46,444 bases of DNA from Elusimicrobia bacterium GWA2_56_46. Its GTDB lineage: Bacteria; Elusimicrobiota; Elusimicrobia; Elusimicrobiales; UBA9959. The stretch lies in contig MGTT01000029.1 in NCBI GenBank assembly GCA_001799575.1, forward strand, positions 1 to 46,444. The letters are read 5' to 3'. The notes below the pieces were generated by a model, which made no database searches, was not told the DNA's origin, and was given only the letters and a program-made list of their open reading frames with translations. Both the position numbers and the translations under genes were made by a program. Of the stretch, positions 30,734 through 46,444 are shown piece by piece (position 1 is the first letter of the stretch; each line of letters starts with the position of its first letter).

Positions 30734-31489
30734 ATGGGAAAGGCCGGATTAAATAAACTTATCGCTTTGGCCGGCGTAGAGTGGCGCCTGCGCCAGCAAA
30801 GCACTTTCCTCGGCTTCCTCTGGACCCTGCTCAACCCCGCCCTCATGTTCGCCGTGCTCTACGGCCTTTTCGTGAAATGGCTGGGCCGCGCCCAGGACGG
30901 CTACGCCGTCTTTCTGCTGATCGGCATAGTACAGTGGAATTTTTTCGCCTCGGCCACCTCAGCCGCCCTTTCAAGTCTTCCCAGGCGCGGCCCGCTGCTG
31001 GAAAACTACCCCCTGGCCCTGGAGATCCCAGTTCTGGCGGCGGTTCTCAGCGTATATTTTTCCCATCTGCTGGAACTGGCCTCCCTGGCCGCTATACTCG
31101 CTTTTTTCCAGGCTCCGCCCTCCGCCGCCTGGCTCTGGCTGATAGGCCTGGATCTGGCCTATCTGGCCCTGGCCGCCGGGATCGGCCTGATCCTGGCCGG
31201 TCTCTTCGCCTTTTACACGGACATGGAGAGGATCTGGAGCATCCTGCTCTCCGCCGGCTTCTTCCTGACCCCGGTCTTTTATCCGCTCTCCGTCATAGCG
31301 CCGGAAAAGGCCCGCCTGATAGGCTCCAGCCCCCTCACCGCCGTCATAGAAAGCTCCCGCGCGGCCCTCTCGGGCGGCGCCCCGCTCCCGGCGGATCTGA
31401 TCCGCCTCTGTCTCTGGGCCGCGGCGGCGGCGGCGGCGGGCGCCGCTTTCATGCGGCTGAACCGCTCCAGGATAGGAGACTCGCTGTGA
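30734..31489 (+). CDS. ABC-2 type permease of a polysaccharide/teichoic-acid exporter
   Basis: 251 aa. The ATG at 30734 is chosen over an in-frame TTG at 30719, because the TTG lies upstream of the -10 box and inside the previous gene. Six hydrophobic helices follow an amphipathic N-terminus; YGLFVKWLGRA, VQWNFFASATSAALSSL and FFLTPVFYPLSVIAPEKARLIGSSPLTAVIES are typical of Wzm/TagG-type permeases that move lipid-linked glycans across the inner membrane. The ATPase gene starts in the overlapping GTGA of its stop. Pairing with the unusual ATPase-deacetylase fusion suggests the exported molecule is processed during export. Confidence 0.9.
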   Translation: MGKAGLNKLIALAGVEWRLRQQSTFLGFLWTLLNPALMFAVLYGLFVKWLGRAQDGYAVFLLIGIVQWNFFASATSAALSSLPRRGPLLENYPLALEIPVLAAVLSVYFSHLLELASLAAILAFFQAPPSAAWLWLIGLDLAYLALAAGIGLILAGLFAFYTDMERIWSILLSAGFFLTPVFYPLSVIAPEKARLIGSSPLTAVIESSRAALSGGAPLPADLIRLCLWAAAAAAAGAAFMRLNRSRIGDSL

Positions 31490-33084
31490 CCGGCCTCTCG
31501 GTAAAGAACATCTCGAAGATCTTCCGCGTGGAGCTCCCGCGCGAGGACACTTTCTCCGCCCTGACCCGGTTTTTCAGCGGCCGCTCCCCCTCCGCCGATT
31601 TCCTCGCCCTGGACTCCGTCTCTCTGGATCTGAAACCCGGTTCGGCCCTGGCGATATGCGGTCCGAACGGTTCCGGGAAAACGACCCTGCTTAAGATCCT
31701 GGCCGGGATCACGCTGCCTTCGTCCGGCTCCGTCTCAGGCGGCGGGAAAAGGGCCTGCCTGCTGGGTTTCTCTTCGATCCTGCAGGAGAGACTGAGCGTC
31801 AAGGAAAACGCCGCGCTCTGCGCCGTCTTTTTCGAACTTCCCGGCCGAACCGCGGATAACGCCGAAAAGATCATGTCCTCGTCTGACCTCGGCCATCTGC
31901 GCAACGCGCGCGCCGGGGAGCTTTCCGCCGGCATGAAGCTGCGCCTGCCGTTCATGGCGGCGCTTGCCTCGGGAGCGGATCTGTTCCTGATAGACGAAAC
32001 GCTGGCCGTGGGCGACGCGGGATTCAAAGCGAGATGCCTGAAAGAACTCCGGGCGCTGCAGGCGCGCGGAGCGATCCTGGTTTTCGCGACGCACGACGCG
32101 GAACTGGCCCGGACGCTGGCCGGCGAGGCCCTGGTGCTTGAAAACGGCCGCGTGATCTTTCACGGCGCTCCGGATAAAATGCCGAAGCCCGGCGGGGCCG
32201 GCATGATGGGAGCGGATTTCGGGAGGGGCCTGGAACGGATCCCGCTCCTTTACTCGCTGCTGAAAGAGGCCGGCTTCGGATTTTCCGGATTCCCTCCGGC
32301 CTCCGACGAGGATCTGCTGCTTGTCCACTCCCGCTCCTGGCTGGCCCGCCTCAAAGCCAACGACCTGAACCCTGAAGAGGAAAAGGAACTGGCCCTGCCG
32401 CATTCAAAATTAATCCTCCCTTATTCCTGGCTTCTGGCCGGCGGCGCCATAGCCGCGGCCCGCGGCGCGCTGGAGCGCGGCCTGGGCATCTTTCCCCGGG
32501 GCGGCGGCCACCACGCTTTCCCGGAGCGCGGCGAAGGCCTTTACCCGGTCAACGATATCGCCGTGGCCGCGCGCGTCCTGCTGAAAGAAAAGCTGGTTAA
32601 ACGGCCGGCCGTCATAGACCTGGACGCCCATCAGGGCAACGGCACGGCTTTCATATTTTCAGGAGGCGAGGTCAAAACTTTTTCCGTCCACAGGGCCGAC
32701 GGCCACCCGCGCAACCGCGTGCGCTCGTCCATGGACGCGGAGATCCCGGCCGGCGCGCGCGACCGGGTCTATCTGGAGGCCGTAAAAAAAGGCGTAAAAG
32801 ATTTCCTGAAAATGGCGAAACCGGATCTTGTTTTCGCTCTTTGTTCGGCGGACGCTTTCGAAAAGGACTCGTTCGGAGGCCTCAGGATCTCTATGGAAGG
32901 GCTGAAAAAAAGGGACACACTGCTGTTTAAAACACTGGCCGGCCTGGGAATACCCGCCTGCCTGGTCCTGGGCGGCTCCTACAGTTCTCCGGAAGAAGCG
33001 GCCCGCATAAATTTAAACACCATAAAAGCCGCCGCCGAAGCCTATCCGGCCTTCGATAAAACCGTCCTGGAGTCCATCCGATGA
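31486..33084 (+). CDS. ABC exporter ATPase fused to a histone-deacetylase-superfamily domain
   Basis: 532 aa from the GTG at 31486, which overlaps the permease stop. Residues 1-230 are a Wzt/TagH-type ATPase: Walker A GPNGSGKT (59-66), signature ELSAGMKLRL, Walker B LFLIDETLAVGD and the switch His in FATHD. Residues about 245-530 are a full HDAC/AcuC/acetylpolyamine-amidohydrolase fold: His342-His343 (GGGHHAF), zinc ligands Asp380 and His382 (DLDAHQGNG), third ligand Asp456 (SADAFEKD), and the transition-state Tyr499 (GGSYSS). There is no stop between the halves; an internal ATG pair at residues 240-241 could allow a separate deacetylase as well. HDAC-fold enzymes remove acyl groups from amines; here it could deacylate the exported product. 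In Wzt the C-terminal extension instead binds the glycan. Confidence 0.88.
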   Translation: MTGLSVKNISKIFRVELPREDTFSALTRFFSGRSPSADFLALDSVSLDLKPGSALAICGPNGSGKTTLLKILAGITLPSSGSVSGGGKRACLLGFSSILQERLSVKENAALCAVFFELPGRTADNAEKIMSSSDLGHLRNARAGELSAGMKLRLPFMAALASGADLFLIDETLAVGDAGFKARCLKELRALQARGAILVFATHDAELARTLAGEALVLENGRVIFHGAPDKMPKPGGAGMMGADFGRGLERIPLLYSLLKEAGFGFSGFPPASDEDLLLVHSRSWLARLKANDLNPEEEKELALPHSKLILPYSWLLAGGAIAAARGALERGLGIFPRGGGHHAFPERGEGLYPVNDIAVAARVLLKEKLVKRPAVIDLDAHQGNGTAFIFSGGEVKTFSVHRADGHPRNRVRSSMDAEIPAGARDRVYLEAVKKGVKDFLKMAKPDLVFALCSADAFEKDSFGGLRISMEGLKKRDTLLFKTLAGLGIPACLVLGGSYSSPEEAARINLNTIKAAAEAYPAFDKTVLESIR

Positions 33085-33920
33085 AACCCGGCGATATATG
33101 GCTCAAAAAAGTGGCGGCCTATTACGATTCCAAAAAAAAGGATCTTAACTGGCGGCTTGCCGCCGACGGCATAATTCATCACCACAACGGCCTGATATTC
33201 GACAAGACGTCTTTCCTCAGGAAAATGAAAACCGCCGGAACGGCCGCCGGAGAAGCCCTCATCCACCGTTCTGAAACGGAACTGTCTGGATTCGGTTTTA
33301 AGTTCCTGGACTGTCCGCGGAAACGCGCGCGGCTGCTTGACGCGGGCTGCGGCCGGGGCGGCTCAAGCCTGCTGCTGGCCGAACGGTATCCGCTGCTGCG
33401 GATCACGGGAGTCACTCTCTCGGCTTATCAGGCCGCCGCGGCGCGCGCGGCCGCCAGGGCGCGCGGCCTGGACGCGAGGATTGAATTCCGCCGCGCCTCG
33501 ATGCTTTCCCTGCCGGTTCCGGAAAACATATTCGACCGGGCCTGGGCCTGCGAGTCTACGGAGCATCTTCCCTCTCTGCCGGCTTTTTTCGGCGAAATGG
33601 CCAGGGTCTGCGTTCCCGGCGCGAGACTGGTGGTGATAGCGGGAGTGCGAAATCCCGGACACCCGGGCGAAAAGCGGTTCACCAGGCTCGCCAATCAGGT
33701 GTATTTCCTGAAACTGCATACGGAAAAAGAATACCTGGACGCCGGAGCCTCCCGCGGCTGGGAACTGACCTGTAAAAAGGATCTGACCCGGCCGGCGGCC
33801 AACTACTGGAATATGCGCGCGATGCTGCAAAAAGGGTCGGGTACGGAATTTTTCGCCGCGCCGGCCTTTACCGGAGGCGCTTTTCTGTACCATCTGTACG
33901 CATACGATCTTGTCAAATGA
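33081..33920 (+). CDS. SAM-dependent methyltransferase (tocopherol/sterol/UbiE-like branch)
   Basis: 279 aa cytoplasmic class I methyltransferase. SAM motif I is LLDAGCGRGGSS (86-97), followed by ITGVTLSAYQ, the acidic-loop and WACESTEHLPSLPAFFGEMARVCVPGARLVVIAG, a set seen in gamma-tocopherol, sterol-C24 and geranyl-diphosphate methyltransferases. The N-terminal sequence YYDSKKKDLNWRLAADGIIHHH also fits that branch. A carbon or nitrogen acceptor on a prenyl or small aromatic molecule is therefore plausible. It overlaps the ABC-deacetylase gene by 4 bp (ATGA), and the next radical SAM gene follows by 10 bp; a UbiA gene is two genes downstream. Confidence 0.85.
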   Translation: MKPGDIWLKKVAAYYDSKKKDLNWRLAADGIIHHHNGLIFDKTSFLRKMKTAGTAAGEALIHRSETELSGFGFKFLDCPRKRARLLDAGCGRGGSSLLLAERYPLLRITGVTLSAYQAAAARAAARARGLDARIEFRRASMLSLPVPENIFDRAWACESTEHLPSLPAFFGEMARVCVPGARLVVIAGVRNPGHPGEKRFTRLANQVYFLKLHTEKEYLDAGASRGWELTCKKDLTRPAANYWNMRAMLQKGSGTEFFAAPAFTGGAFLYHLYAYDLVK

Positions 33921-33930
33921 GGGATCCAAC

Positions 33931-35490
33931 ATGAACCCTATGGAAACCATGCCGGGAAAAGATCCGGACATTCTGCTTGTTTCGGAGGAGGAAAGTACTT
34001 CGTCCAAGACCCAGCCTTTCGCCAGATTCCTGACCGCGCCCCGGGAAGCCGTGTCGGCCAAATTCGGCCTCCCCCCTCTTCCCAAAAATCCCTCCCACCA
34101 GCTTGGCATAGTGGCGCTCGGCACCTACCTGCGAAACAACGGCTTTACTCCCCTTCTGATGGACAGGATCCTGACCGTGCCGGGAAACTGGTCGGATTTC
34201 GAAAAAGTCCTTTCCCGCGGAATACCGGCCGTGGGGATCTCCACCTCGCTTTTGATCACCAAGGAAACCGTTAAAAAGATCACAGACGCGGTCAGGAGCG
34301 CCTCCCCGAAAGCGCTTGTGATCCTGGGCGGGCAGGGCGCTTTGATAAATCCCGACATCATGGTTCTGGGAGATATCACCGTGAAAGGCGCGGGGGAAAA
34401 ACCGCTGCTGGAGATCATGAAAGCGCTGAAGAGTAAAACGCCGCTGAAAAAAATACCCAATATTTACGTGAACCGGGGCGGGAACTGCACTTACACGTTC
34501 GACGCGCCGCCGCTGCCGCTGGACGAACTTCCTAGCCCGGACTGGAGTCTTTTCAAAGAACGCCCCTTCTCCGGCTGCGCGGTAAGAGCCTCGGAAGGCT
34601 GTGTGCACCGCTGCGCTTTCTGCGCCTGGGATCTCCCCGGGAAGCAGGAATTCAGAAGCGCGGCGCTTGTGGTTGAAGAAATGCGTCTCAACAAAGAGCT
34701 CCACGGGTTCACCTCCCAATGGATCATAGATTCCAATTTCACCTCCTCCTCGGCGAGAGTCTCCGCCATATGCGACCTGCTCCTGGAACGCGGGGTCAAG
34801 GCGGAATGGGCCTGTTTCGGCAGGACCGACGATTTCGTAAAGAACCCGGACATGGCGGAAAAGATGCGCGCCGCCGGCTGCGTCAGCGTATTATGCGGGG
34901 TGGAATCCGGAGACGACTCCATTTTAAAGGCGATGCGCAAAGGCACCGACGTAAAAACCAATCTGGAAGGCATCCGCCTCCTGAAAAAGGCGGGCTTACG
35001 CCCCTACGCCAGCTTCCTCATCGGCTTCCCCGGCGAAACGGAGGTCACAATACGGAACACGCTGGACTTTATACGCGGCTCGGAAATAGAAACCTCCGCG
35101 CTCATAGCTTTTCGCGTTCCGACCAATACGCATGCCCGCGTCTGGGTGGAGCGGAAAACTTTCGGGGTGGAAGGCTCCTGGAAAAACTGGAAGCACGGGA
35201 CTATGACCTCTAAAGAAGTCTATATCCATGTGCAAAACGCGATAGAACGGATATGTCTCGAAATGCCGGGCAAGACGCTTGGGGGGCCGATCCCGGATCT
35301 GCTGGGGTTCGGCTTGACCGTGAATGAAGTAAGCGCGTACCTGGGAGCGGTCAGGGATTACAATTTCGCGGAGAAAAAGAACGAAGCCGCGCTGCTGGCC
35401 TCCGCCGAAAACCGGATAGCCGACGCCCTGAAAAAGATCCATTCGATCTGGAACTCCCGGCTGTCCTCTCCAGGCGTTCCCGCCGCCTGA
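33931..35490 (+). CDS. Cobalamin-binding-type radical SAM enzyme (B12-radical SAM)
   Basis: 519 aa. The start ATG at 33931 has GAGGG 8 nt upstream; an in-frame TTG at 33910 lies inside the previous gene and is rejected. Residues about 40-180 look like a B12-binding Rossmann domain (LGIVALGTYLRNNGF, AVGISTSLLITKETVKKI, LVILGGQGALINPDIM), and the radical SAM core has Cys224, Cys228, Cys231 (SEGCVHRCAFC), LCGVESGDDSILKAMRKGTD and FLIGFPGETE. The B12-box His is not certain. This class methylates unactivated carbons or rearranges lipids and cofactors. Expected partners are the methyltransferase before it and the UbiA protein after it. Confidence 0.88.
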   Translation: MNPMETMPGKDPDILLVSEEESTSSKTQPFARFLTAPREAVSAKFGLPPLPKNPSHQLGIVALGTYLRNNGFTPLLMDRILTVPGNWSDFEKVLSRGIPAVGISTSLLITKETVKKITDAVRSASPKALVILGGQGALINPDIMVLGDITVKGAGEKPLLEIMKALKSKTPLKKIPNIYVNRGGNCTYTFDAPPLPLDELPSPDWSLFKERPFSGCAVRASEGCVHRCAFCAWDLPGKQEFRSAALVVEEMRLNKELHGFTSQWIIDSNFTSSSARVSAICDLLLERGVKAEWACFGRTDDFVKNPDMAEKMRAAGCVSVLCGVESGDDSILKAMRKGTDVKTNLEGIRLLKKAGLRPYASFLIGFPGETEVTIRNTLDFIRGSEIETSALIAFRVPTNTHARVWVERKTFGVEGSWKNWKHGTMTSKEVYIHVQNAIERICLEMPGKTLGGPIPDLLGFGLTVNEVSAYLGAVRDYNFAEKKNEAALLASAENRIADALKKIHSIWNSRLSSPGVPAA

Positions 35491-36382: not shown

Positions 36383-38002
36383 TTATGAGCCGGGGCTGAA
36401 CACCGCCCGCATTTCCTCCCATAACGGGCCGGTGTCGCTCCCGGAAAAGCCGGCTGCGGCCAGCCGATTGCGAAGATAATAGATCCGGCTGACGTCGCGC
36501 GGCAACAGCCCGGGAAGCTCCGGGATCTCTCCGGGATAGGCAGGGGAAATCCACGGGTTGATCAGGGAAGGGAGCGTCTTCATAAAGTCGGTGGCGGCGG
36601 TAGAATCAAAAGTGGAATGACTCCAGTTCCCTCCGTAACCGCGCAGCCCGTAAAGTTTACGCCCTTCCAGTGAGCCCGCGTAACTCATGGCCAGGGGAAT
36701 AAATAAAAGGAATAGATGGCGGTGGGCGGCACTGGCGTCATCGGGATAGGAATTAAGCAGTTCCACCGTCCGTTTAAGCGTCTGTTCCGTTTCCCCGGGA
36801 AAGCCGACCAGAAAATAGTTCTTGGTGTGGATCCCCCTTTCGTGGAGCAGCTTCACCGAGCCGAGGATCCGCCCGATATCATCGCTCTTCCCCATACGTG
36901 AGCGCACGCCGGGATCGCCCGACTCCACACCCAGCAGCGCCTCACGGCAGCCGGAGGCGCGCATAAGATCCGCAATTTCAGCGTCTATTATTTCAGGACG
37001 GATAAAGCCGGTCCAATAAATTTTCATCCCCGAGGAGATCATCGCCCCCATAAGGTCGCTCGCCCTTCGGAGCGACGGAAAAAGGTTATCATCCGTGAAA
37101 AACACCCGCCTTACCCCTTCGGATTCCGGAATCGAGAAGATTTCGGCGATTACAGCGCTAACCTCCCGGTCACGGGATCCGGACGAAACCGAGCTAAAAT
37201 CACAGAAGCGGCAACGGAAAGCGCAGCCCTCTGCGGAGGCCACCGGGAAATATTTATCCGAGGCGGCGGGAAAAGCCAGGTTCCAGTCGACATTGGACAT
37301 TTCCTCGCTCGCGGCCGGGACATCCGGCATATGCCATCGCCCGCCCCGATACCTGGCAAGCCCCTTTACGCTATCCCATGGCCTGCCACCGCATACCGCC
37401 AGCGCAAGATCGGAAAGGATCTCGGCCCCGGTCGGGGAGATAACCGCGGCGTCAAGGGGCGTCGGACGTTGGGGCTCGATAAAATAGTGATGAACGGACG
37501 CCCCCTCCAGGCTCTCCCGGGACAGCGAGCCGGCGCGGGTAAGCTCCAGGATACGATGCGATTTCCAGATAAGGGGCCCGCCGGCGACAACAACCGCGCC
37601 TGGAAGAACGGATTTGACATAAGCCGCCAGCGAATCCACAACCCCGCTGTAGACTATAAACGTCGTCGAGATGGCCACGACCCTGGGCCGGCGGCGCAGG
37701 AAGCTGTCCAACTCTTCTTTCCGCCCTGAAACCGTGTGAAGGGCCTCCGCCCTGAGTCCGAGAACCGAAAGCCGCTGCTGTAAATAAACTGTGGCTCGCG
37801 GTACAAAGCCGGGGAAGCGGAGATCTTCCTCCGCGGCCGAAACCAGCCCCCCCGACCCGAAATAGGCCCGCAGAGCCCTGAGCGTGGCCGGGGCGCGGCC
37901 TATCCGGAGATAGCCTTTTTCACGGTGCTCTTCAGCGATTTCATGCCTGATCTCCCCGCCTATGATCAGCACATCCAGTCCCGGATCTTCCTGTCCGCCC
38001 AT
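36383..38002 (-). CDS. Cobalamin-binding-type radical SAM enzyme
   Basis: 539 aa, leftward. The N-terminal ~220 residues resemble a B12-binding domain (LDVLIIGGEIRH, ATLRALRAYFG, VVAISTTFIVYSGVVDSLAAYVKSVLPGAVVVAGGPL in part). The radical SAM core carries Cys260, Cys264, Cys267 (SAEGCAFRCRFCDF), RRVFFTDDNLFPS, EALLGVESGDPGVRSRMGKSDD and YFLVGFPGETEQTL. It has the same architecture as the 33931 protein but is a clearly different family member. GAGG 5 nt before the ATG supports the start. Substrate unknown. Confidence 0.87.
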   Translation of the reverse strand: MGGQEDPGLDVLIIGGEIRHEIAEEHREKGYLRIGRAPATLRALRAYFGSGGLVSAAEEDLRFPGFVPRATVYLQQRLSVLGLRAEALHTVSGRKEELDSFLRRRPRVVAISTTFIVYSGVVDSLAAYVKSVLPGAVVVAGGPLIWKSHRILELTRAGSLSRESLEGASVHHYFIEPQRPTPLDAAVISPTGAEILSDLALAVCGGRPWDSVKGLARYRGGRWHMPDVPAASEEMSNVDWNLAFPAASDKYFPVASAEGCAFRCRFCDFSSVSSGSRDREVSAVIAEIFSIPESEGVRRVFFTDDNLFPSLRRASDLMGAMISSGMKIYWTGFIRPEIIDAEIADLMRASGCREALLGVESGDPGVRSRMGKSDDIGRILGSVKLLHERGIHTKNYFLVGFPGETEQTLKRTVELLNSYPDDASAAHRHLFLLFIPLAMSYAGSLEGRKLYGLRGYGGNWSHSTFDSTAATDFMKTLPSLINPWISPAYPGEIPELPGLLPRDVSRIYYLRNRLAAAGFSGSDTGPLWEEMRAVFSPGS

Positions 38003-38037: not shown

Positions 38038-38086
38038 CTTTTCGTTCGCACTGGAGATAAAATGGAAGCCATTCTTCAATATGTCC

Positions 38087-38092
38087 TATAAT
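38087..38092 (+). promoter_or_regulatory. -10 box of a predicted leaderless promoter (radical SAM gene)
   Basis: TATAAT, then ACCACA, then ATG at 38099. An earlier in-frame ATG (38081) precedes the -10 box, so it could not be translated from this transcript; 38099 is taken as the start. Confidence 0.55.
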
Positions 38093-38098
38093 ACCACA

Positions 38099-39361
38099 AT
38101 GGCGGCTGCACAGACAAAATCGGCGCATGACAGGCCGCTTGATCATAAGAATTACTACCGGCTTCCCTGGAGCGCCAACGATAACGCCTGTGCCTGGCTG
38201 GAACCCACAAAAAACTGCAACATGGCCTGCGAGGGATGTTACAGCGCCAATGATACGGGCGTACATAAGACCCTGCATCAGGTGCGCCAGGATCTGGATG
38301 TTATAGGCCGCTACCGCAATACCCACACCGTCATGATCTCCGGCGGCGACCCGCTCACTCACCCCCAGGTGGAGGATGTCGTGCGGCTTGTCTCCGCGAG
38401 AGGTTACGTTCCTGTCCTGCTTACCAACGGCTTGGCGCTTACGCCGCGGCTGCTGGACGGACTCAAACGTGCCGGGCTGAAAGGCTTTAACTTTCATGTG
38501 GACAGCAGACAGAAACGGCCCGGCTGGACCGGGAGGAACGAGATTGAATTAAACGAGCTGCGCCGCACTTACGCTGAAATGGTGGCCCGGCCGGGGGGGC
38601 TGACCTGCTCGTTTCATACCACCGTGTACGGAGACACGCTGAAACACGTCCCTGGTATTTTAAAGTGGGCGCAGCGGCATATAGAGTCGGTTCATCTTAT
38701 GACTTTCATCGCTTTCAGGACATTCAGGGAATACATGCCGGAAGGCCGCTTTGAGTATTTTGCCAACGGCAAAAAGGTGGCGCTGCCGGCGGCTTCGGAC
38801 GACGCCGGCGGCGCCGCCTCAAGAACGGATATAACTTCCAGGGAAATCGTGCGAGAAATACGCCGGGAATATCCGGATTTCGAACCATGCGGCTACCTGG
38901 GAGGGACCGAGGACCATGACGCCCTGAAATGGCTCTTTACCATACGGATCGGAAAAAATGACGGGATATACGGCTGCCTGGGACCGAAACTGATGGAGAT
39001 CTTCCAGATCTTCCATCATATGTTCACAGGAAAGTACCGCGCGAATATACCTCCGGGGATCCGCGCGGCCTCGAAATGGCTGTTCCCGGCCGCGCTTATA
39101 GACAAGCCCGCCGCTATGGCTTTTAGGCGATACTTGAGCGCCTGCCTGAAAGATCCGTCAAAACTGCTGTCTCCCGTCCATACGCAGGAGGTGGTGATCC
39201 TGCAGCCGCCGGATATACTTGCCGACGGCCGTCAGTCCATGTGCGACGCCTGTCCGGATATGACGGTGTGGAACGGACGGCTTGTATGGTCCTGCAGACT
39301 TGAAGAGCTTACGCGCTTCGGCTGTTTTCTTACCCCGGTTCCGAAGCCGGAACAGCCCTGA
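38099..39361 (+). CDS. Radical SAM enzyme with C-terminal Cys motif
   Basis: 420 aa from the ATG at 38099. CxxxCxxC is Cys40, Cys44, Cys47 (PTKNCNMACEGCYSAN), with MISGGDPLTHPQ as the SAM-binding strand. The C-terminal region has MCDACPDMTVWNGRLVWSCRLEE, a CxxC plus a further Cys that could ligate an auxiliary cluster. A middle segment (residues ~290-345) is rich in aromatic and hydrophobic residues (FQIFHHMFTGKY, WLFPAALI) and may touch a lipid. The class resembles lipid- or cofactor-modifying radical SAM proteins more than SPASM peptide maturases, but the substrate is unknown. The next radical SAM gene starts 9 bp later. Confidence 0.86.
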   Translation: MAAAQTKSAHDRPLDHKNYYRLPWSANDNACAWLEPTKNCNMACEGCYSANDTGVHKTLHQVRQDLDVIGRYRNTHTVMISGGDPLTHPQVEDVVRLVSARGYVPVLLTNGLALTPRLLDGLKRAGLKGFNFHVDSRQKRPGWTGRNEIELNELRRTYAEMVARPGGLTCSFHTTVYGDTLKHVPGILKWAQRHIESVHLMTFIAFRTFREYMPEGRFEYFANGKKVALPAASDDAGGAASRTDITSREIVREIRREYPDFEPCGYLGGTEDHDALKWLFTIRIGKNDGIYGCLGPKLMEIFQIFHHMFTGKYRANIPPGIRAASKWLFPAALIDKPAAMAFRRYLSACLKDPSKLLSPVHTQEVVILQPPDILADGRQSMCDACPDMTVWNGRLVWSCRLEELTRFGCFLTPVPKPEQP

Positions 39362-39370
39362 CCTCAATCT

Positions 39371-40312
39371 ATGTTTAAAGCGGGAAAAACTCGCGGCAGC
39401 AAAACCCCGGACGGAATAAAAATCTCCGGCAGGGTAAAGCTGGACCTGGCCGTGTTGAACGCCAGGCTGCCGGCCCTCCCTCCCGGGGCGCCCCGCTATC
39501 TTTTCCTCGGCCTCACTTCCCGCTGCGACCTTGCCTGCCCCCACTGCAAATATTCCGGCGCGGACGTGCCGGCGCGGAAAGCGGATATGCCAGCCGGCCT
39601 GCTTGAACGCGTCCTCGGGGAGGCCGCTGGCGCCGGGATACCGCGCGTGGTTTTTTTCGGCGGAGAGCCGCTGCTGTACCGCGGCCTTGAGAACGCCGTA
39701 TCCGCCGCGGCCAGGCTGGGCCTTTTCACGGAACTGGACACCAACGGGCAATCCCTGGATAACGCCAGGGCCGCGCGGCTGGCCTCGGCCGGACTCTGCG
39801 CGGTACGCATAAGTCTCCATTCGTCCTCCCCGGCCCGGCACAACGCCCTGTCGGGAAAAGGGACTTTCGGCAAAGCGTTGTCCGCGATCGCCGCCGCAAA
39901 GAGGGCCGGCCTTCTCACGTACATTTCCTCCTGTATTTTCTCCGGCGGCCTGGCCGCCGGGGAACCGGAAAAGCTCGCCTTTTTCGCCGGACAACACGGC
40001 GTGCACGGCTTAAGGTTTCTGGCCTATTCCCCCCGGAGCGGAGTCTCCCCGCTCCCGCTGCGGCTTTCAGCCCGCCTGGCGCGCCTCGCCCCGGACGGCT
40101 ACGCAAGAACCTGCGTTCCGCCGGGAAAAAAGAAGTGCGCGGCGCTCCGCGGAGAACTGCTTTACGCCGACCCTGGCGGAACCGTGAAGACCTGCCCGTA
40201 CTCCTCCTCCACGCTCGGCTCGCTGCTGAAAAATGATCTTAAAAGCATCCTGCGCGGCGCCCGCTTCGGGCGGGCCGCCGGCCGCGGCTTCCCATGCCAA
40301 AAATCGGGTTGA
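39371..40312 (+). CDS. Radical SAM/SPASM enzyme, probable RiPP maturase
   Basis: 313 aa. CxxxCxxC is Cys52, Cys56, Cys59 (TSRCDLACPHCKYSG); FFGGEPLLYRGL and FTELDTNGQSL follow. The C-terminus has TCVPPGKKKCAALRGELLYADPGGTVKTCPYSSSTLGSLL and a last Cys in GFPCQK, a SPASM-like pattern. Directly downstream lie a PqqD-type recognition protein and a short peptide gene, the same order of parts as in PQQ, mycofactocin and other radical SAM RiPP loci. I infer that this enzyme modifies that peptide. The peptide contains no Cys, which argues against a thioether (sactipeptide) product. Confidence 0.86.
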   Translation: MFKAGKTRGSKTPDGIKISGRVKLDLAVLNARLPALPPGAPRYLFLGLTSRCDLACPHCKYSGADVPARKADMPAGLLERVLGEAAGAGIPRVVFFGGEPLLYRGLENAVSAAARLGLFTELDTNGQSLDNARAARLASAGLCAVRISLHSSSPARHNALSGKGTFGKALSAIAAAKRAGLLTYISSCIFSGGLAAGEPEKLAFFAGQHGVHGLRFLAYSPRSGVSPLPLRLSARLARLAPDGYARTCVPPGKKKCAALRGELLYADPGGTVKTCPYSSSTLGSLLKNDLKSILRGARFGRAAGRGFPCQKSG

Positions 40313-40318
40313 TTTTGC

Positions 40319-40324
40319 TACAAT
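40319..40324 (+). promoter_or_regulatory. Extended -10 box of a predicted leaderless promoter (PqqD-like gene)
   Basis: TG-C-TACAAT (40316-40324), then AAACAT, then the ATG at 40331. The extended TGn helps compensate for a weak -35. Confidence 0.55.
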
Positions 40325-40330
40325 AAACAT

Positions 40331-40615
40331 ATGCCCGCGGAAAAAAAGAACCCATCGATCTCGGAAGCCGTAACCTGGCGCAAGACCGGGGAAGAAGCGG
40401 TGATCCTTAATCTGGAGACTTCCGAATATTATTCCACCAACGGCGCCGGCGCCTTTATCTGGGAATTGCTGAATTCAGGCAGGAACCACTACAGGATCGC
40501 CGAAGCCCTGGCCGCGGAATACGGCATCCCGGTGAAGCAGGCCGCCGCGGACACGGCTGAGTTCCTGAACGATCTGAGAAAACTTAAAATACTGGATCCG
40601 GAGGCTGGCAGATGA
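40331..40615 (+). CDS. PqqD-family RiPP recognition element protein
   Basis: 94 aa, the usual stand-alone PqqD size. EEAVILNLETSEYYSTNGAGAFIWELLNSG (residues 21-50, in part) forms the three beta strands and first helix that bind a leader peptide, and RIAEALAAEYGIP with FLNDLRKLKIL completes the winged-helix fold. PqqD proteins bring a precursor peptide to its modifying enzyme. Upstream (18 bp) is a SPASM radical SAM; downstream its stop overlaps by 4 bp (ATGA) the start of a 49-aa peptide whose sequence has a known type of RRE-binding motif. No Shine-Dalgarno site; a -10 box ends 6 nt before the ATG. Confidence 0.92.
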   Translation: MPAEKKNPSISEAVTWRKTGEEAVILNLETSEYYSTNGAGAFIWELLNSGRNHYRIAEALAAEYGIPVKQAAADTAEFLNDLRKLKILDPEAGR

Positions 40616-40761
40616 AGAACCAGAAGAAATCCGCGCGGAAACCCGGGCCAGCCGCGGACGGCGCGGCAAAGGCCGGCGGCGGCCAGACGGCCGGATACAC
40701 GAAACCCCGGATAAAATCCCATGGCAAGATAAGTGAAGTCGCTTCCGCGTTCAAACCGTAA
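40612..40761 (+). CDS. Putative RiPP precursor peptide, lasso-leader-like, nearly coreless (49 aa)
   Basis: Short frame from ATG 40612 (overlapping the PqqD-like stop as ATGA) to TAA 40759-40761. Residues 1-28 are basic and rich in Gly, Ala and Pro. Residues 29-44 read YTKPRIKSHGKISEVA and match the lasso-leader pattern Y-x2-P-x-L-x3-G-x5-T with Tyr29, Pro32, Ile34, Gly38 and Ala44 in place of Thr; this motif is what PqqD-like RREs bind in lasso systems. Only five residues (SAFKP) follow, so there is no normal core. No Cys or Trp is present. The last 29 bp overlap the next gene. The peptide may be a recognition tag, a carrier, or be modified within its own motif. Confidence 0.68.
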   Translation: MKNQKKSARKPGPAADGAAKAGGGQTAGYTKPRIKSHGKISEVASAFKP

Positions 40762-41719
40762 AACGGCTTTCCTGTTCCCCGGCTCGGGCGCCCAGCATCT
40801 GGGCATGGGCCGGGCGCTCCGGGACGCTTTCCCTGACATAGAGAACGGGCTGATGGAAATAAACGGCGTCCTGGGCTGCGACCTCGCCTCCGCGATGGAC
40901 GGGCCGCCGGAACTACTGTTCCCCCCCGTAGATTCGCGCACCCCTACCATTTTCATGGAAGTCACGATGGCCCTCTCCCTGGCCGTGGCCCGCTCGCTGG
41001 CCCGGGCCGGGGCTTTTCCGGACGTCCTTGCCGGGCGCAGCATGGGAGAGTACAGCGCCGCCTCTTTTGGCGGAGTATTTGGAACGGGCGACTGCTTCCT
41101 GATGGTAAAAACCGTCACGCTGTACGGGCAGGAGGACTGCCTTGAAAACCCCAGTTCCCTGGTCACTATTTACGGACTGAGCAGAATGGAATTGGGCAAG
41201 GTGGCGGAGGAAATGTCCGCGGCGGGACATCTGTGCGAAGTGGTGGCTTTCTACGACAAACCCCGCATAGGAGCGGCGGGGCTCAGAAATTCCTCCCTGG
41301 AGGAACTCAGAAAACGCCTGGCTCCGTTCAGGCACAGGATCTCCGTTTCAAAGGAAGTGGGCGCTTTCCACAGCTCCCTTTTCGACAGGCTGGCGGGAAG
41401 GGCCCGCGGCTTCTTTTCCGGCATCCCTTTTTCTCCTCCCGCGCGCCCGCTTTACATGAACCTGGACGCGGCGCCGGAAGTTTCGCCGGACGGCATAAAG
41501 GAGAAACTGGCTTCCGCGCTTAACAGCCCCGTGCTCTGGCAGGAAACCATACGGAATATGCTGGCCGCGGGCGTGCGCACTTTCGTCGAGATGGCCCCCG
41601 GAGCCATGCTGACGGAATTCATCTGCGACCTTCCCCAGGACGCGGAGGTGCTGCGCACCGATACGCCGGAACATTACAAACAGACCATGCGGCGCCTCGC
41701 GGAGAAACCTCGTGCATAA
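40733..41719 (+). CDS. FabD/malonyl-transferase-like acyltransferase
   Basis: 328 aa from GTG 40733, the only start near the family's usual N-terminus (KTAFLFPGSGAQHLGMG). Catalytic Ser103 lies in AGRSMGEYSAAS and catalytic His213 in GAFHSSLFD, so the enzyme should be active. The Arg that binds the malonyl carboxylate in FabD (RG within the helix after the nucleophile domain) appears as Tyr131 in KTVTLYGQ, which suggests a non-carboxylated acyl group. No acyl carrier protein or ketosynthase lies in the window. The gene overlaps the peptide gene by 29 bp and the HprK-like gene by 8 bp, so it belongs to the RiPP-like unit and may acylate its product. Confidence 0.85.
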   Translation: MKSLPRSNRKTAFLFPGSGAQHLGMGRALRDAFPDIENGLMEINGVLGCDLASAMDGPPELLFPPVDSRTPTIFMEVTMALSLAVARSLARAGAFPDVLAGRSMGEYSAASFGGVFGTGDCFLMVKTVTLYGQEDCLENPSSLVTIYGLSRMELGKVAEEMSAAGHLCEVVAFYDKPRIGAAGLRNSSLEELRKRLAPFRHRISVSKEVGAFHSSLFDRLAGRARGFFSGIPFSPPARPLYMNLDAAPEVSPDGIKEKLASALNSPVLWQETIRNMLAAGVRTFVEMAPGAMLTEFICDLPQDAEVLRTDTPEHYKQTMRRLAEKPRA

Positions 41720-42722
41720 CGCCGCTTTTGATTTTCACGGCTGCGGACTTGAATTCAGGTCCGAAGACCCGGAACTTGTTGCGTGGCTCTCGTCTGATTT
41801 CTCCGCTTTCGCCAGTACGCGCGCCGCGGCGCCGCTTATAACAGTAACGGCCCTGCGGCGCGACCCCGCGCTTCAGGAACCGCTTCCGGCGATCCTGAAA
41901 ACCAAAAAATTACATATCCTTGCCGCACCGGCCGGACGGCGGCGCGTCTGGTATCCCGAGGGCGCCCTCTGCGAATACGACTACCGGGCCGGAGCCGGTC
42001 TTGTGATGAGCCGAGACACCGACCTCCTGCGTGAATTGTCCTATCTGCTCATACTTTCCCGGGTGGGGGAGGCGCTGGATCTGCGCGGACTGCACAGACT
42101 GCATGCCGGCGCGCTGGCGTATCGCGGCAAAGCTCTTATTTTCTGCGGCCGGCAGGGAGCGGGAAAAACCACTCTGCTGCTGGAACTGCTGCGCGATAAG
42201 GATTTCTTTCTGCTTTCGGATGACACGCCGCTCATTTCCGGGGACGGCGGGGTGCACCCTTTCCCGGCGCGCATAGGTCTGGGAGAGGACAACCCTCATC
42301 TGCCGCGGCTGGGCCGGCTGCGCGGCTTCAGACGCAGGCATTATCCCCCGAAACGCCTTCTGGATATTTCCGGCTGCGGCATAACGGTTTCCGGGCCCAC
42401 GCCCCCGGCCCTCATATTCAGGCTGGAAAGAGGCGGCCAGCCGCGCTTCCTCCGCCCAGGCCCGCTTGCCGGAGCGCTGGAGGGAGCAAAATCTCTCGTG
42501 GCCGGAGCCGGAACTCCGCAAATGGCCGAATATTTTCTCAGGGCTTCGCCGGAGGATCTGGCCCGCAAAGTTAAAATAGCGGCCTCCCGCGTCTCCGCGG
42601 CCAGGTCGCTTTTCGCCAAAACTCCGTTCTGGATCTTCAGGAGAGGTCCGGATCCGGCCTCCAACGCCGCAGCTTTTAAAGAATTCCTTCGCAGCGGCAG
42701 CGTAACGGCTTTCTCCTCCTGA
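41712..42722 (+). CDS. HPr-kinase-like P-loop kinase
   Basis: 336 aa from GTG 41712. Walker A is GRQGAGKTTLL starting at residue 146, preceded by LHRLHAGALAYRGKALIFC and followed by the acidic FLLSDDTPLI (Asp170-Asp171), the layout of HprK-type kinases. The first ~120 residues are a separate domain of unknown fold, as often in HprK homologues of RiPP and exopolysaccharide loci. In paeninodin-type lasso clusters an HprK homologue phosphorylates a C-terminal Ser of the precursor. Here the peptide has Ser36, Ser41 and Ser45. Overlap of 8 bp with the acyltransferase gene indicates co-translation. The 3' end overlaps the convergent GT2 gene by 47 bp. Confidence 0.85.
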   Translation: MHNAAFDFHGCGLEFRSEDPELVAWLSSDFSAFASTRAAAPLITVTALRRDPALQEPLPAILKTKKLHILAAPAGRRRVWYPEGALCEYDYRAGAGLVMSRDTDLLRELSYLLILSRVGEALDLRGLHRLHAGALAYRGKALIFCGRQGAGKTTLLLELLRDKDFFLLSDDTPLISGDGGVHPFPARIGLGEDNPHLPRLGRLRGFRRRHYPPKRLLDISGCGITVSGPTPPALIFRLERGGQPRFLRPGPLAGALEGAKSLVAGAGTPQMAEYFLRASPEDLARKVKIAASRVSAARSLFAKTPFWIFRRGPDPASNAAAFKEFLRSGSVTAFSS

Positions 42723-43695
42723 AAACTTTTTCCGCCATAAATTCTGCCGCGCCATAAAGCCAGCCCGCGGCGTATGCGGAGTGCAAGGCCGGAAACAACG
42801 GTATGAGCGACGCCTTAATCTTCCAGCCGGGCCCGGAGAAAGCGGCGGCGGCGCAGGCGGCGCCATACGCCGCGGCAAGCGGGACGAAACCGGAAGGGAA
42901 CACGGCCGCGGAAAAACCGCCCAGGAAAAGCGCCGCCGGCGGCAGCAGGGTAAAGGCCGAAAAACCGTCGCGGCTTAAGAGCGTGATCTGGGCCCGCCCG
43001 CGGCCCGAACTGAAAACCTGCGCCAGGAAATCCGGCAGGCCGCTCCGCCGCCTGTGAACAAGGTTCAGATCCCCGCTTAAGATCATCCCGGCCCCGGCCG
43101 CCGCCATGCGGTTCATCAGCAGATTTTCCTCCGCGCTGGTCAGATGGCCCTCGAACGAGAGGCTGTGTTCCGTAAGGAATTTACGATCCACGATCAGGTT
43201 GCAGAGTATGAATTTTTCCGGGCCGGCGGGCCGGGTCCCCCGCACCGGGGAAAATCTCTCCGTAAAAGGCCCGCCGCCCCAGCGCGACGACAGCAGGGCG
43301 TAAACCACGGCTTCAAAATAACCGGCCCCGGCGTACAGCTCCTGCCCCCCGCCGAAAACGGAACAGTCCGGATTTTTTTCGATAAGCGCCGCCAGCCGCG
43401 TGAAATACCCCTCCGGAACGACGGTATCGTCGTCGAGGAAACAAAGCCAGCGCCCGCGCGCCGCGGAAACAAGAGCGTTGCGCGCCTCGCCTCTGCACAT
43501 ACGGCGCAGGTTTACGGCCCTCACGGTATCTTTAAAGCTTTTAATCACAGCCAGCGACTCCGGATCCTCCCCGTTGACGCCGGCTATTATTTCCGGCGGC
43601 CCGCCGCCGGCTATAACGCTTTCAAGGCAGGCCCGCAGCAGCGCGGGACGCCCGCGCGTGATCATGATAACGCTCATCCCTCCGTCAACCGCCAT
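42676..43695 (-). CDS. Family 2 glycosyltransferase with C-terminal membrane helices
   Basis: 339 aa. The ATG at 43695 is chosen because GGAGG lies 6 nt upstream; it overlaps the stop of the preceding gene by 11 bp. GT-A features: SVIMITRGRPALLRACLESVIAGG, GEARNALVSAARGRWLCFLDDDTVVPEGYF with the DDD metal site, and an acidic TSAEENLLMNRM segment. Two to three hydrophobic helices at about residues 255-320 anchor it to the membrane. It probably adds a sugar to a lipid-linked or peptide-linked glycan made by this locus. It is translated together with the beta-helix/nucleotidyltransferase gene. Confidence 0.87.
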   Translation of the reverse strand: MAVDGGMSVIMITRGRPALLRACLESVIAGGGPPEIIAGVNGEDPESLAVIKSFKDTVRAVNLRRMCRGEARNALVSAARGRWLCFLDDDTVVPEGYFTRLAALIEKNPDCSVFGGGQELYAGAGYFEAVVYALLSSRWGGGPFTERFSPVRGTRPAGPEKFILCNLIVDRKFLTEHSLSFEGHLTSAEENLLMNRMAAAGAGMILSGDLNLVHRRRSGLPDFLAQVFSSGRGRAQITLLSRDGFSAFTLLPPAALFLGGFSAAVFPSGFVPLAAAYGAACAAAAFSGPGWKIKASLIPLFPALHSAYAAGWLYGAAEFMAEKVFRRRKPLRCRCEGIL

Positions 43696-46444
43696 CGACC
43701 GCCTCCATAAGAGCTGTTGTCTGCGCCGCGATAAACTCATAATTGCCGCGCCCGGCCCCGCCGGCCAGATATGCCCGCCAGTCCGGAAAAGAATCCCCGA
43801 AAGCCGCGCGAAAACTCTCCGAAAGTTCCGCGGGACGGGAGAAAGGCGGGGAGGAGCCTTTTTCGATCAGGAGACGCAGGCCGGCCGCCCGCGTATAGAA
43901 GTAGTGCGGGGGCATTTCGCCCCAGAGTCCGCGCCAGGAAGCCGAGAAATGCCCGGCCGCCAGAGCGGCGCAGGTCTTCAACTCGGAAGAAGCGGGCGGC
44001 GGCGGAACCTCCGCTCCGGAACTGTAAATACCTCCGTCCTCCGGCGACACGCCCGCGGCGGGGCGCGCGAGGTCAAGCCAGAAAAGCGGATTATTCAGAT
44101 AAGGCAGGCGTGAAAGTCCGCGGAAAGCGGAGCGGGTGAGCAGCAATGGCGCGGCCGAAAAACAGGACGCGGCAAGGGAGGCGGCGCGCAGGGCGGACGC
44201 CGCCCGCAGAAAGGCCGCCTTGTCCCCATAAACTTCGTCGGGGAGCACAAGGTAAACCCGGTACAAAGGATCCAGCACCACTCCGCTCCCGCGCCCCGCG
44301 GCCTCCGATAAAGAGGCGCCGGCCGCCTCAAAAGCGCGCCGGTTGAACCAGCCGCCCGGCGGCGCGTCCGCCGGCCCCGTTCCCGGGCCGGCGGCCGGAG
44401 AAGCGGCGTGCAGCGCGCGGAAAGATTCGAACGCCGCTTCGGAAAGATCGAAAGCGGAAACGCCCTCAAGATCAAGCCCCAGCCCGGCGGCGTAGGCGCT
44501 CCTGGAGGCCCGCAGCGGAGAGGAGAAATCAAGATAACGTTTAACGTCCACCATATTTTTAAGACAATTTCTTAACCGGAAAGACGGAGGCATCTCCTCC
44601 GCGAAAAAATGCCGCAGCAGCAGCGTATAGGCGTAAAAAGCCTCAGTCTGATCCGCGGCGCGCCCGCCGCCGGGCGGCCGGGAAGAGATACCCGGGCCGG
44701 CCAACAGTCTGGAGGCGGCCGGGAATTCAGCCCCCTTTACGCCCCAGGAAGACATAAAATAGGAAAAATGCTTCTCCGGCGCCGTAAGAATTTCCCCGGT
44801 AAAAGGGAAAACCGCCCTGAAAGCGCGGAGACGGCGGCGCAGGGACTTGTATGAAAACCAGTCTTCCGCCGGCGTCCGGCGTTCCAGAACCAGAGCAAGA
44901 TCCATGTCGCTGAGAGCGGGAACCCAGCCGGGAGCGGCCATGCCGCGGTAAAGGTAAAGGGAGCCTCTTCCGCGCGGCCGCAGAAAAACTCCCGCCGCCC
45001 GAGCGGCCGCCAGGTAGATAAGACGGTAAAAGGAGGAGAACACCGGAAGACGGGCAGTAGCCGCGGAAAATCTGAACAGCGCCGCGCGCGCCGTATAAGT
45101 TTCAGCCGAGGAACCCGGCGGACGCCAGGGAACGCCTTCAAAAACAACATTCCTGCAACTGAGCAGGGCGCCGCCTTCCGCGGAAAGTCCCGGGTGCGGC
45201 GAGCCGCTCAAAACCGCTCCGTCGAAACGGGCGCTGCCGCCGGAAATATGAACCCCGCCTCTGGCGCCGCCGGAGGCGCGCAGGCCTGAAACGCGCAAAC
45301 GGACCCCGGAGCAGTTCACGGCATAATCACGGGCCCGGATCTCAAGTTTTTTCGCGCGCACCTCGGAGGGGAAAGACGCCAGCAGCCCGCCGGCCCCCGT
45401 CGCGGAGACCGAGCGCAGAACAGCCCGCGCCATCGAAAGGTTCAGGGCCGCTCCGGAATCTGAAAAAAGAGAGCAGGCCTCCAGCGTTATAGAGGAGCGG
45501 CCGCGCGCGAAAACGGCGTCGGAACCGGACTTGAACTCGGAGCGGGCGGCGTGAAAAAAAGCCAGACCGTCCAAAGAAACCGCCGGACCTCCGGAACTGT
45601 CCGCCATTGAGCGTGAAACCGAGGCGCGGGAGCGTCCGGCCAGAAGCAGGGAGGCCGGGACTCCGCTAAAAGAACACTCCGCGGCGGAAAGTTCCGCTCC
45701 GTCGGAAAGTTCGAACGAGGGGCCGGCGTTCCGGTCAAAGCGGCAGGCGCGGGCCTCCCCCCTGGAAAGGCCGGAAAAAGCGGCGCCTGAAATATTGTCC
45801 GTAAAAGTAGAGTTTTCAAGCCGTACAACGGCGCGCCCGGAACACAGCAGCGGAGCGCCGCGCTGGTTCTCAAAGGCGCACCCGGCCGCCAGGGCGGAGA
45901 CTTCTCCTGAAAAATCTGCGCCTACGGAATTACCCCTGAAAACGGATCGGGAAAGATCCGCCCTGCCGCGCCCGGAAGAGCAGAGGGCGGGCCCGGTGTT
46001 CTCCTCAAAGACACAGTTCCCGATCACAAGTCGGGAATAGTTCCAGGGGAACGGGGAAGCCTCAAGGGAAATACCGGCCGCGTTCCCCCTGAAAACAGAA
46101 TCCGCGGCGGACAGCGACACCAGCCGTTCCACACGGACGGCGTGACCGCGGATCCCGGAGAAAGAGGACGATCTTATTTCTACGCGGTTAAGACCCCCCC
46201 CCTCTATTCCGCTCTCACCGTTTTCAAACACGCAGCGCCGCGCGCTGAAAGACGCCCTGCCTGCCAGGCTGACTGCCTGCCCGGAATTACCGGAGAACCG
46301 GCAGTCGTCCATCCTGGTCTCATTGCGCCCGAAAGCGCAGAAGGCGGGGCCGGTATTCTTCTCAAAAATACAATTCCTGATCAAAAAACGGGAACGGTTC
46401 CAGGGGAACGGGGAAGCCTCAAGGGACATGCCGACAGCGTTCCC
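43685..46444 (-). CDS. Right-handed beta-helix protein fused to a nucleotidyltransferase domain (N-terminus outside window)
   Basis: At least 919 residues; the frame is open to the right edge, and the first Met in the window sits inside a repeat, so the true start lies beyond 46444. The first ~460 visible residues are parallel-beta-helix coils (NCVFEENTGPALCSSGRG, SVFRGNSVGADFSG, STFTDNISGAAFSG). Then, near 44880-44990, comes a nucleotidyltransferase-like motif: GSLYLYRGMA and VPALSDMDLALVLERR, with the SDxDL metal-binding acidic pair. The rest (~400 residues) is helical and unknown. Fusion of a surface-type beta-helix to a cytoplasmic-type transferase is unusual. The stop overlaps the GT2 start. 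Confidence 0.8.
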   Translation of the reverse strand, partial: GNAVGMSLEASPFPWNRSRFLIRNCIFEKNTGPAFCAFGRNETRMDDCRFSGNSGQAVSLAGRASFSARRCVFENGESGIEGGGLNRVEIRSSSFSGIRGHAVRVERLVSLSAADSVFRGNAAGISLEASPFPWNYSRLVIGNCVFEENTGPALCSSGRGRADLSRSVFRGNSVGADFSGEVSALAAGCAFENQRGAPLLCSGRAVVRLENSTFTDNISGAAFSGLSRGEARACRFDRNAGPSFELSDGAELSAAECSFSGVPASLLLAGRSRASVSRSMADSSGGPAVSLDGLAFFHAARSEFKSGSDAVFARGRSSITLEACSLFSDSGAALNLSMARAVLRSVSATGAGGLLASFPSEVRAKKLEIRARDYAVNCSGVRLRVSGLRASGGARGGVHISGGSARFDGAVLSGSPHPGLSAEGGALLSCRNVVFEGVPWRPPGSSAETYTARAALFRFSAATARLPVFSSFYRLIYLAAARAAGVFLRPRGRGSLYLYRGMAAPGWVPALSDMDLALVLERRTPAEDWFSYKSLRRRLRAFRAVFPFTGEILTAPEKHFSYFMSSWGVKGAEFPAASRLLAGPGISSRPPGGGRAADQTEAFYAYTLLLRHFFAEEMPPSFRLRNCLKNMVDVKRYLDFSSPLRASRSAYAAGLGLDLEGVSAFDLSEAAFESFRALHAASPAAGPGTGPADAPPGGWFNRRAFEAAGASLSEAAGRGSGVVLDPLYRVYLVLPDEVYGDKAAFLRAASALRAASLAASCFSAAPLLLTRSAFRGLSRLPYLNNPLFWLDLARPAAGVSPEDGGIYSSGAEVPPPPASSELKTCAALAAGHFSASWRGLWGEMPPHYFYTRAAGLRLLIEKGSSPPFSRPAELSESFRAAFGDSFPDWRAYLAGGAGRGNYEFIAAQTTALMEAVDGG
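46041..46426. repeat. 357-bp internal duplication in the beta-helix gene
   Basis: A 29-bp stretch is identical at 46041-46069 and 46398-46426 (encoding SLEASPFPWN), and flanking sequence on both sides stays alignable for at least 50 bp. The offset is 357 bp (119 residues), so coils were duplicated in frame, apparently recently. Confidence 0.8.

Follow-up and report, generated by a model that had tools for sequence, protein, structure and literature searches.

Linear polyphosphorylated peptides (LPPs), produced by LppA/B/K/S/N systems, are ribosomally synthesized and post-translationally modified peptides (RiPPs) that have been reported from Bacillota only (Popov et al. 2026, PMC13381572). In these systems, N33 and D70 of LppB hold the proline kink and the tyrosine of the leader, and the N33A substitution nearly abolishes binding, whereas LppS, of the archaeal-type signal peptidase class, was shown by experiment to be the leader peptidase and requires Ser, His, and Asp; peptidases of this class cut LPP leaders with the help of the RiPP recognition element (RRE) (PMC13381572). 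Here, we describe a locus of Elusimicrobia bacterium GWA2_56_46, from the little-known phylum Elusimicrobiota, in which a small precursor peptide gene follows the gene of a PqqD-like RRE. The locus lies in contig MGTT01000029.1 (46,444 nucleotides, the window), which is contig C29 of its own genome (G000, 2.66 Mb, 98.8% complete).

We consider it fairly probable that this locus, which belongs to a family found across the class Elusimicrobia, encodes a RiPP-type unit operating in the manner of the Bacillota LPP systems. The precursor would be bound at its Y-x-x-P-x-I...H-G segment by the PqqD-like RRE, which would present the C-terminal tail to the tailoring enzymes. In the subtype found here, named after its tail Phe-Lys-Pro (FKP), these would be a radical S-adenosylmethionine (SAM) enzyme, an HprK-like kinase, and a FabD-like acyltransferase moving a probably non-malonyl acyl group. 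A fused archaeal-type signal-peptidase domain would then cleave after Ala46 and free a product built from Phe-Lys-Pro, which a glycosyltransferase and a nucleotidyltransferase may decorate. We infer the cleavage, the order of the steps, all the modifications, and the product from what can be read in the genomes, namely the gene set, its conservation, the leader/RRE match, the peptidase domain, its co-occurrence with certain tails, and a common cleavage register.

An initial annotation, made from the letters of this DNA, had listed five genes, and both the genes and their coordinates were confirmed, including the overlap of the peptide start with the stop of the PqqD-like gene by ATGA. The corresponding features are as follows.

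39371..40312, forward strand: radical SAM enzyme (rSAM_B; Pfam Radical_SAM, 5.5e-20).
40331..40615, forward strand: PqqD-like RRE, lasso/LPP type by its matches (Pfam PqqD, 1.2e-18; TbiB1 in PDB, 2e-19).
40612..40761, forward strand: precursor peptide of 49 amino acids (aa), kept in 16 other genomes, with a ratio of nonsynonymous to synonymous changes (pN/pS) of 0.11.
40696..40725, forward strand: recognition segment YTKPRIKSHG, Y29 to G38, common to nearly all tail types.
40741..40749, forward strand: predicted signal-peptidase -3/-1 site A44-S45-A46, to be cut after Ala46; the register is found in 11 of 12 distinct tails.
40750..40758, forward strand: predicted mini-core Phe47-Lys48-Pro49, kept wherever the acyltransferase adjoins.
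40733..41719, forward strand: FabD-like acyltransferase, start codon uncertain (TIGR00128, 1.3e-32).
41712..42722, forward strand: HprK-like kinase (TIGR04352/TIGR04355, about 2e-6, under cut-off).

Orthologues of the acyltransferase with 44-74% identity were found in 16 of the 58 other genomes of the family. The initial annotation had proposed a search for conserved synteny in relatives; this was run, and a short open reading frame (ORF) encoding the peptide follows the PqqD-like gene in all 16 acyltransferase-bearing relatives, which makes 17 family genomes with that of the window. The consensus of the orthologues is MK..(K-rich)..KKYQKP[RQK][IV]KSHGKISEVASAFKP with an identical stop position, and the precursor is 49 aa long in the window and 34-35 aa long in the orthologues. 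The C-terminal half of the peptide is highly conserved among the 17 genomes. Within its last 22 codons, 21 third positions are variable, as compared with six first and three second positions, and the pN/pS is 0.11 overall and 0.16 when codons overlapping the acyltransferase are left out. This synteny and codon pattern indicate that the frame is a real gene under strong protein-level constraint, as had been supposed. A chance ORF or a by-product of the overlapping acyltransferase frame was rejected, since the codon pattern persists outside the overlap and the overlapping GTG is absent in two relatives. The exception as to the tail is genome G021, which has two peptides, one ending in TTVAGIIVRE and the other in TKVAGADDDPVR; between them and the acyltransferase gene lie genes for a SPASM radical SAM enzyme and an AMP-binding ligase.

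The PqqD-like protein matches the NCBIfam lasso RRE models with scores under their cut-offs, and its profile found TbiB1 (5v1u, 2e-19), TfuB1, PbaB1 (9x90), and LppB (9x8z) among solved structures. All 16 sequences have N37 and D74, which align with N33 and D70 of LppB. We assign the protein by these features as an RRE of the lasso/LPP type; the invariant residues and the structure-profile matches bear out the RRE and the lasso-type leader motif of the initial annotation. The leader motif fits five fixed positions (Y1, P4, V/I6, H9, I12) of the LPP consensus YxxPxVLxHQxIxFETxxS, whose Q, F-E-T, and next Ser do not fit. The general mark of a RiPP, a ribosomal precursor gene adjoining an RRE predicted to be able to bind its leader, was found. 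In genome G226, furthermore, the PqqD-like RRE is fused to a peptide of the family in a 137-aa frame (L141:7512-7925, forward strand, ending in SYSKPQLTRHASLEQKSYAWATY), which is good genetic evidence that the RRE and the peptide act together. The leader/RRE match and the conserved synteny thus support the idea of a peptide-guided pathway that would depend on the RRE. The triplets Y-T-K and H-G-K had been regarded as possible sites of modification; however, Thr30 varies (T/Q/R/E), whereas Y, K-P, and H-G are common to nearly all tails. Radical SAM crosslinks in Y-x-K or H-G-K are disfavoured because both lie in the common recognition segment, and the modified part is likely the type-specific tail, here FKP.

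Tail positions were counted from the leader Tyr/Trp as position 1. In 11 of the 12 distinct tails with a core, A/V/I/S/T was observed at position 16 and A/S/G at position 18, the pattern of the signal-peptidase -3/-1 rule. At position 19, Phe is the commonest residue, the alternatives being H, R, M, W, D, or I, none of them small; the core that would be left has 3-9 residues. When tails were shuffled, none of 20,000 reached 11 at any shared register. For the window, the register predicts ASA↓FKP, that is, a probable cut after Ala46 leaving a three-residue core. The peptidase domain, counted as present at 50 bits or more, was found in 19 of 20 genomes with a mini-core tail, in none of the six whose sole tail is VLSIVEGD, and in none of the three without a peptide; two of the six VLSIVEGD-only genomes match below this threshold, with 34 and 48 bits. 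The VLSIVEGD tail ends at position 18 and is coreless. The window peptide had been called almost coreless, yet it probably has a core, in view of the common register and of the peptidase tracking the mini-core tails. It had also been said to end five residues after the motif; in fact, the peptide extends 11 residues beyond Gly38, the count being five if taken from the position that corresponds to the lasso -2 residue. In several sister types, core position 2 or 3 is Ser/Thr, and here, where the acyltransferase appears, position 2 is Lys; we might guess that an acyl group replaces the phosphate at this Lys.

The initial annotation had described a unit of 3.4 kb. The gene positions were correct, whereas the extent was not, because a convergent family 2 glycosyltransferase (GT2) gene and a peptidase/beta-helix gene (42676-46444) are conserved alongside.

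42676..43740, reverse strand: GT2, convergent, weakly MftF-like (PF00535, 5.4e-16), conserved in 16 loci.
43685..46444, reverse strand: 3' part of the gene for a signal-peptidase domain, a right-handed beta-helix, and a C-terminal domain (Beta_helix, 1.8e-27).
43688..45106, reverse strand: C-terminal domain with an RG...SDxDL motif, probable nucleotidyltransferase (invariant residues; weak 1ylq match).

Full-length orthologues of the gene at the contig end encode the signal-peptidase domain, then the beta-helix, and then the C-terminal domain. Their N-terminus, GHSMRFLLEPGD...GDIALLVKW...YVIHRVL...LLTKGDAN..PD, is a signal-peptidase domain of the archaeal/SipW type, which matches TIGR02228 with an E value of 8e-7, under the curated cut-off; in G226 the signal-peptidase-like domain is a separate 141-aa frame (L141:66-491; TIGR02228, 4e-12). 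The Ser, His, and candidate Asp residues of the domain are invariant. The 5' part of the window gene was located at G000:C4:1-1443 (reverse strand), reading off the first base of contig C4, with a GT2 gene behind it placed as in the relatives. This position at a contig edge and the relative-like GT2 gene suggest that an assembly gap interrupts the peptidase/beta-helix gene (46444 / C4:1), and the gap between C29 and C4 probably falls in the repeats of this gene. The earlier statement that a leader peptidase is lacking is thus no longer tenable, since the domain is present beyond the window edge and full-length in relatives. As for the C-terminal domain, R54, G55, S66, D67, and D69 of the RG...SDxDL motif are invariant, and 1ylq matches weakly at this motif (E 0.4). 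Pfam scans of the domain and its remote homologues gave no transferase family, and the AlphaFold model, built on a five-sequence alignment, was poor (pLDDT 53). From the motif, we regard the domain as a probable nucleotidyltransferase.

Among the tailoring enzymes, the radical SAM enzyme has CxxxCxxC and five other invariant Cys (C188, C248, C256, C275, and C309). It had been labelled SPASM-type; the radical SAM assignment stands, whereas the SPASM label is loose, as no match to Pfam SPASM was obtained despite the five extra Cys. Its gene and that of the PqqD-like protein are neighbours in 15 of 16 loci; the remaining locus (L043) begins at a contig edge. The enzyme is a probable tailoring enzyme of the FKP subtype. 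In the acyltransferase, the Ser103/His213 dyad is intact. The position of the malonate-binding Arg117 of FabD, by which a malonyl transferase is recognized, is V/Y/F/T/I/M in 16 of 16 sequences and never Arg, so that a non-malonyl acyl donor is likely. No acyl carrier protein (ACP) was found near the locus in the nine genomes tested, in agreement with the initial annotation. The HprK-like kinase has an intact P-loop GxxxxGKT and an intact SDDT; its AlphaFold model (pLDDT 55, five-sequence alignment) was poor.

The peptide profile searches covered 341 genomes of the phylum, and related peptides were also found in other Elusimicrobia families. Their common leader is K-K-Y-x-K-P-x-[LI]-x-K-H-G-x-[LI], and the tails of the subtypes are TALA[HR]SY, IASFRTFY, AAFSLLY, IRAFQLLY, VYGMEFTPD, SYAWATY, and VLSIVEGD. 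Homologues of the PqqD-like, HprK-like, GT2, and beta-helix/C-terminal-domain proteins are often encoded at the loci of these other tails. The acyltransferase, in contrast, is absent from all 23 such loci and is unique to the FKP subtype. A contig scan with the acyltransferase gave matches from Elusimicrobia metagenome-assembled genomes only. Within the window's family of 59 genomes, the presence of the HprK-like gene coincides exactly with that of the peptide: 19 genomes have both, and the remaining 40 lack the kinase gene. Judged from these sequences, a conserved, RRE-guided peptide pathway is widespread in the class Elusimicrobia. We tentatively extend the proposal to the phylum, although we would not rely on it: Elusimicrobiota may derive a range of ribosomal products of 3-9 residues, among them FKP, HSY/RSY, FRTFY, FSLLY, and WATY, from precursors sharing one RRE leader. 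A signal peptidase joined in one protein with a beta-helix and a nucleotidyltransferase-like domain would release them, each mini-core would have its own tailoring genes, and in the FKP type an acyltransferase would be involved, perhaps acting on the Lys that occupies the place of a Ser in several sister cores.

Several points weigh against the LPP-like reading. G021 retains the acyltransferase with other tails, and its AGI↓IVRE violates the -3/-1 rule. Because the tails share a common descent and the register was tested only after it had been noticed, the pattern is suggestive and not an independent proof. FKP has no hydroxyl for an HprK-type kinase; the predicted core lacks Ser, and Ser41 and Ser45 lie in the leader. 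The peptides of the VLSIVEGD type (type D) have a leader without a core, and thus some members of the family may not be precursors. Finally, the nucleotidyltransferase label is weak, and no transporter gene was identified for the unit.

The tag-or-carrier function proposed in the initial annotation survives as a rival that we do not favour. In this reading, the tail would not be set free as a product but would serve for the assembly of an acyl or sugar unit, with the leader bound to the RRE, and the peptidase would act elsewhere or only at the end. The near-invariance of the tail within a subtype whose enzymes have diverged to 44-74% identity, unlike the variable cores of most RiPPs, fits a carrier, as do the lack of an ACP near the acyltransferase and the type D peptides that stop at position 18 without a peptidase. 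However, the peptidase tracks the mini-core, and the cleavage register is fixed. For RiPP cofactors such as pyrroloquinoline quinone (PQQ) and mycofactocin, too, a short core that does not vary is nothing unusual, and we regard a carrier as unlikely.

A cofactor similar to mycofactocin appears less probable still, although it would be compatible with an LPP-like unit: the mini-core would give rise to a small molecule with a redox or coenzyme-like role, and the MftF-like enzyme would glycosylate it. The short invariant core, the PqqD-like RRE, the radical SAM enzyme, and the weak likeness of the GT2 to MftF point in this direction, and, like the mycofactocin core, most sister cores have a C-terminal Tyr. 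On the other hand, the GT2 scored 42.8 bits against TIGR03965 (MftF) with a cut-off of 280, FKP has no Tyr, and presence in 19 of 59 genomes shows no family-wide requirement.

A regulatory or docking peptide, an unmodified adaptor bringing the RRE to enzymes of cell-envelope glycosylation, would explain the extreme conservation of the tail and the glycosyltransferase, ABC transport, and isoprenoid genes in the neighbourhoods of relatives, but whole tails are swapped between subtypes and linked to the peptidase, and we hold this to be very improbable. A lasso peptide was rejected, and a degenerate lasso locus, to which the lasso-type RRE and leader motif might point, is scarcely credible, since the B2 transglutaminase-like peptidase (PF13471) is found in none of 17 genomes, the core is too short, the genes are intact and conserved, and there is no cyclase at the locus, as already noted in the initial annotation; matches to the asparagine-synthetase-like cyclase (PF00733) lie on contigs other than that of the locus in 16 of 16 genomes tested.

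Other observations concern related peptides and neighbouring genes. Sister peptides ending in an invariant HGVLSIVEGD occur across several genera (L094, L097, L132-L135, and L142), with a motif starting with W or Y. They have no mini-core, and a strong peptidase match was found only where another tail type co-occurs; these peptides may be carriers rather than precursors. Another family of short peptides, KYQKP[VD]IKSEKIFETAALAC(G/A)KC... (L083:1486-1632, L085:856-999, and L088:1420-1650), lies near small signal-peptidase-like frames and PqqD-like genes. Its IFET stretch resembles the LPP consensus, and LPP-like systems may thus exist in Elusimicrobiota. In the window, an ABC-transporter ATPase (PF00005) and a histone-deacetylase-like domain (PF00850, 1e-37) share one frame (30781-33084, forward strand), homologues of which lie close to the unit in many relatives. 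The 46-kb contig contains at least five more radical SAM genes (23731-24777, 29824-30726, 33910-35490, 36383-38002 on the reverse strand, and 38081-39361), and that at 36383-38002 matches the PhpK P-methyltransferase subfamily with 208 bits against a cut-off of 600. In many relatives, a divergent cluster lies upstream of the unit (L042:415-8238 and equivalents in other orthologous loci), encoding an amino-acid-kinase family protein (possibly isopentenyl phosphate kinase), two polyprenyl synthetases, UbiA, a methyltransferase, and a 4-(hydroxymethyl)-2-furancarboxaldehyde phosphate (4-HFC-P) synthase (MfnB-like, 240 bits). Except for a UbiA relative, this isoprenoid/4-HFC-P synthase cluster is not in the window contig.

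The LPP-like reading would extend the newest RiPP type based on an RRE, an HprK-like kinase, and a signal peptidase from Bacillota to Elusimicrobiota. Literature searches on Elusimicrobia RiPPs and on beta-helix/signal-peptidase RiPPs found nothing beyond the LPP paper (PMC13381572), and no paper on Elusimicrobiota RiPPs with radical SAM enzymes. The combination of leader peptidase, beta-helix, and putative transferase in one protein is an architecture absent from the LPP paper. If the register is true, exact products of a few residues are predicted, whose chemistry is testable by co-expression, and the natural RRE-precursor fusion of G226 is a ready construct for structural work.

Compared with known systems, the unit shares an HprK-related kinase and a PqqD-related protein with the NCBIfam HprK-related systems A and B (TIGR04352/TIGR04353/TIGR04355), but the kinase scored 26.9 bits against a cut-off of 200 and the PqqD-like protein 17.2 against 35. 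With lasso systems, it shares an RRE nearest to TbiB1 (TbiB1/TfuB1/FusB1-type), the leader motif YxxPxI...G, and an HprK-like kinase as in paeninodin loci, whereas it differs in having neither a B2 peptidase nor a core of lasso length and in the absence of a lasso cyclase from the locus. Mycofactocin (MftA-F) resembles it in the short fixed C-terminal core, the PqqD-like RRE, the radical SAM enzyme, and the weakly MftF-like GT2, and differs in an MftF score far under the cut-off, the leader peptidase, and the core residues. By its predicted mode of action, the nearest known system is that of the LPPs, with which it has in common a discrete RRE with equivalents of N33/D70, a YxxPx[V/I]xxHxxI-type leader, an HprK-like kinase, the absence of a cyclase, an archaeal-type signal peptidase with Ser-His-Asp as the presumed leader peptidase, and, if the weak assignment of the C-terminal domain holds, a nucleotidyltransferase. 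LPP systems have an MsbA-like transporter, whereas none was noticed among the conserved core genes of the Elusimicrobiota unit, for which no profile search aimed at one was made. We do not file the unit as an LPP because the leader departs from the full consensus and the core has no Ser acceptor. Peptidase and transferase are separate genes in LPP systems and a peptidase-beta-helix-transferase fusion in the Elusimicrobiota unit; the studied LPP has a 45-residue core cut after FET, whereas a three-residue core cut two positions later is predicted here, and the radical SAM enzyme, the acyltransferase, the GT2, and the Elusimicrobiota host are additional. The unit looks like a new RiPP branch with an unusually short product.

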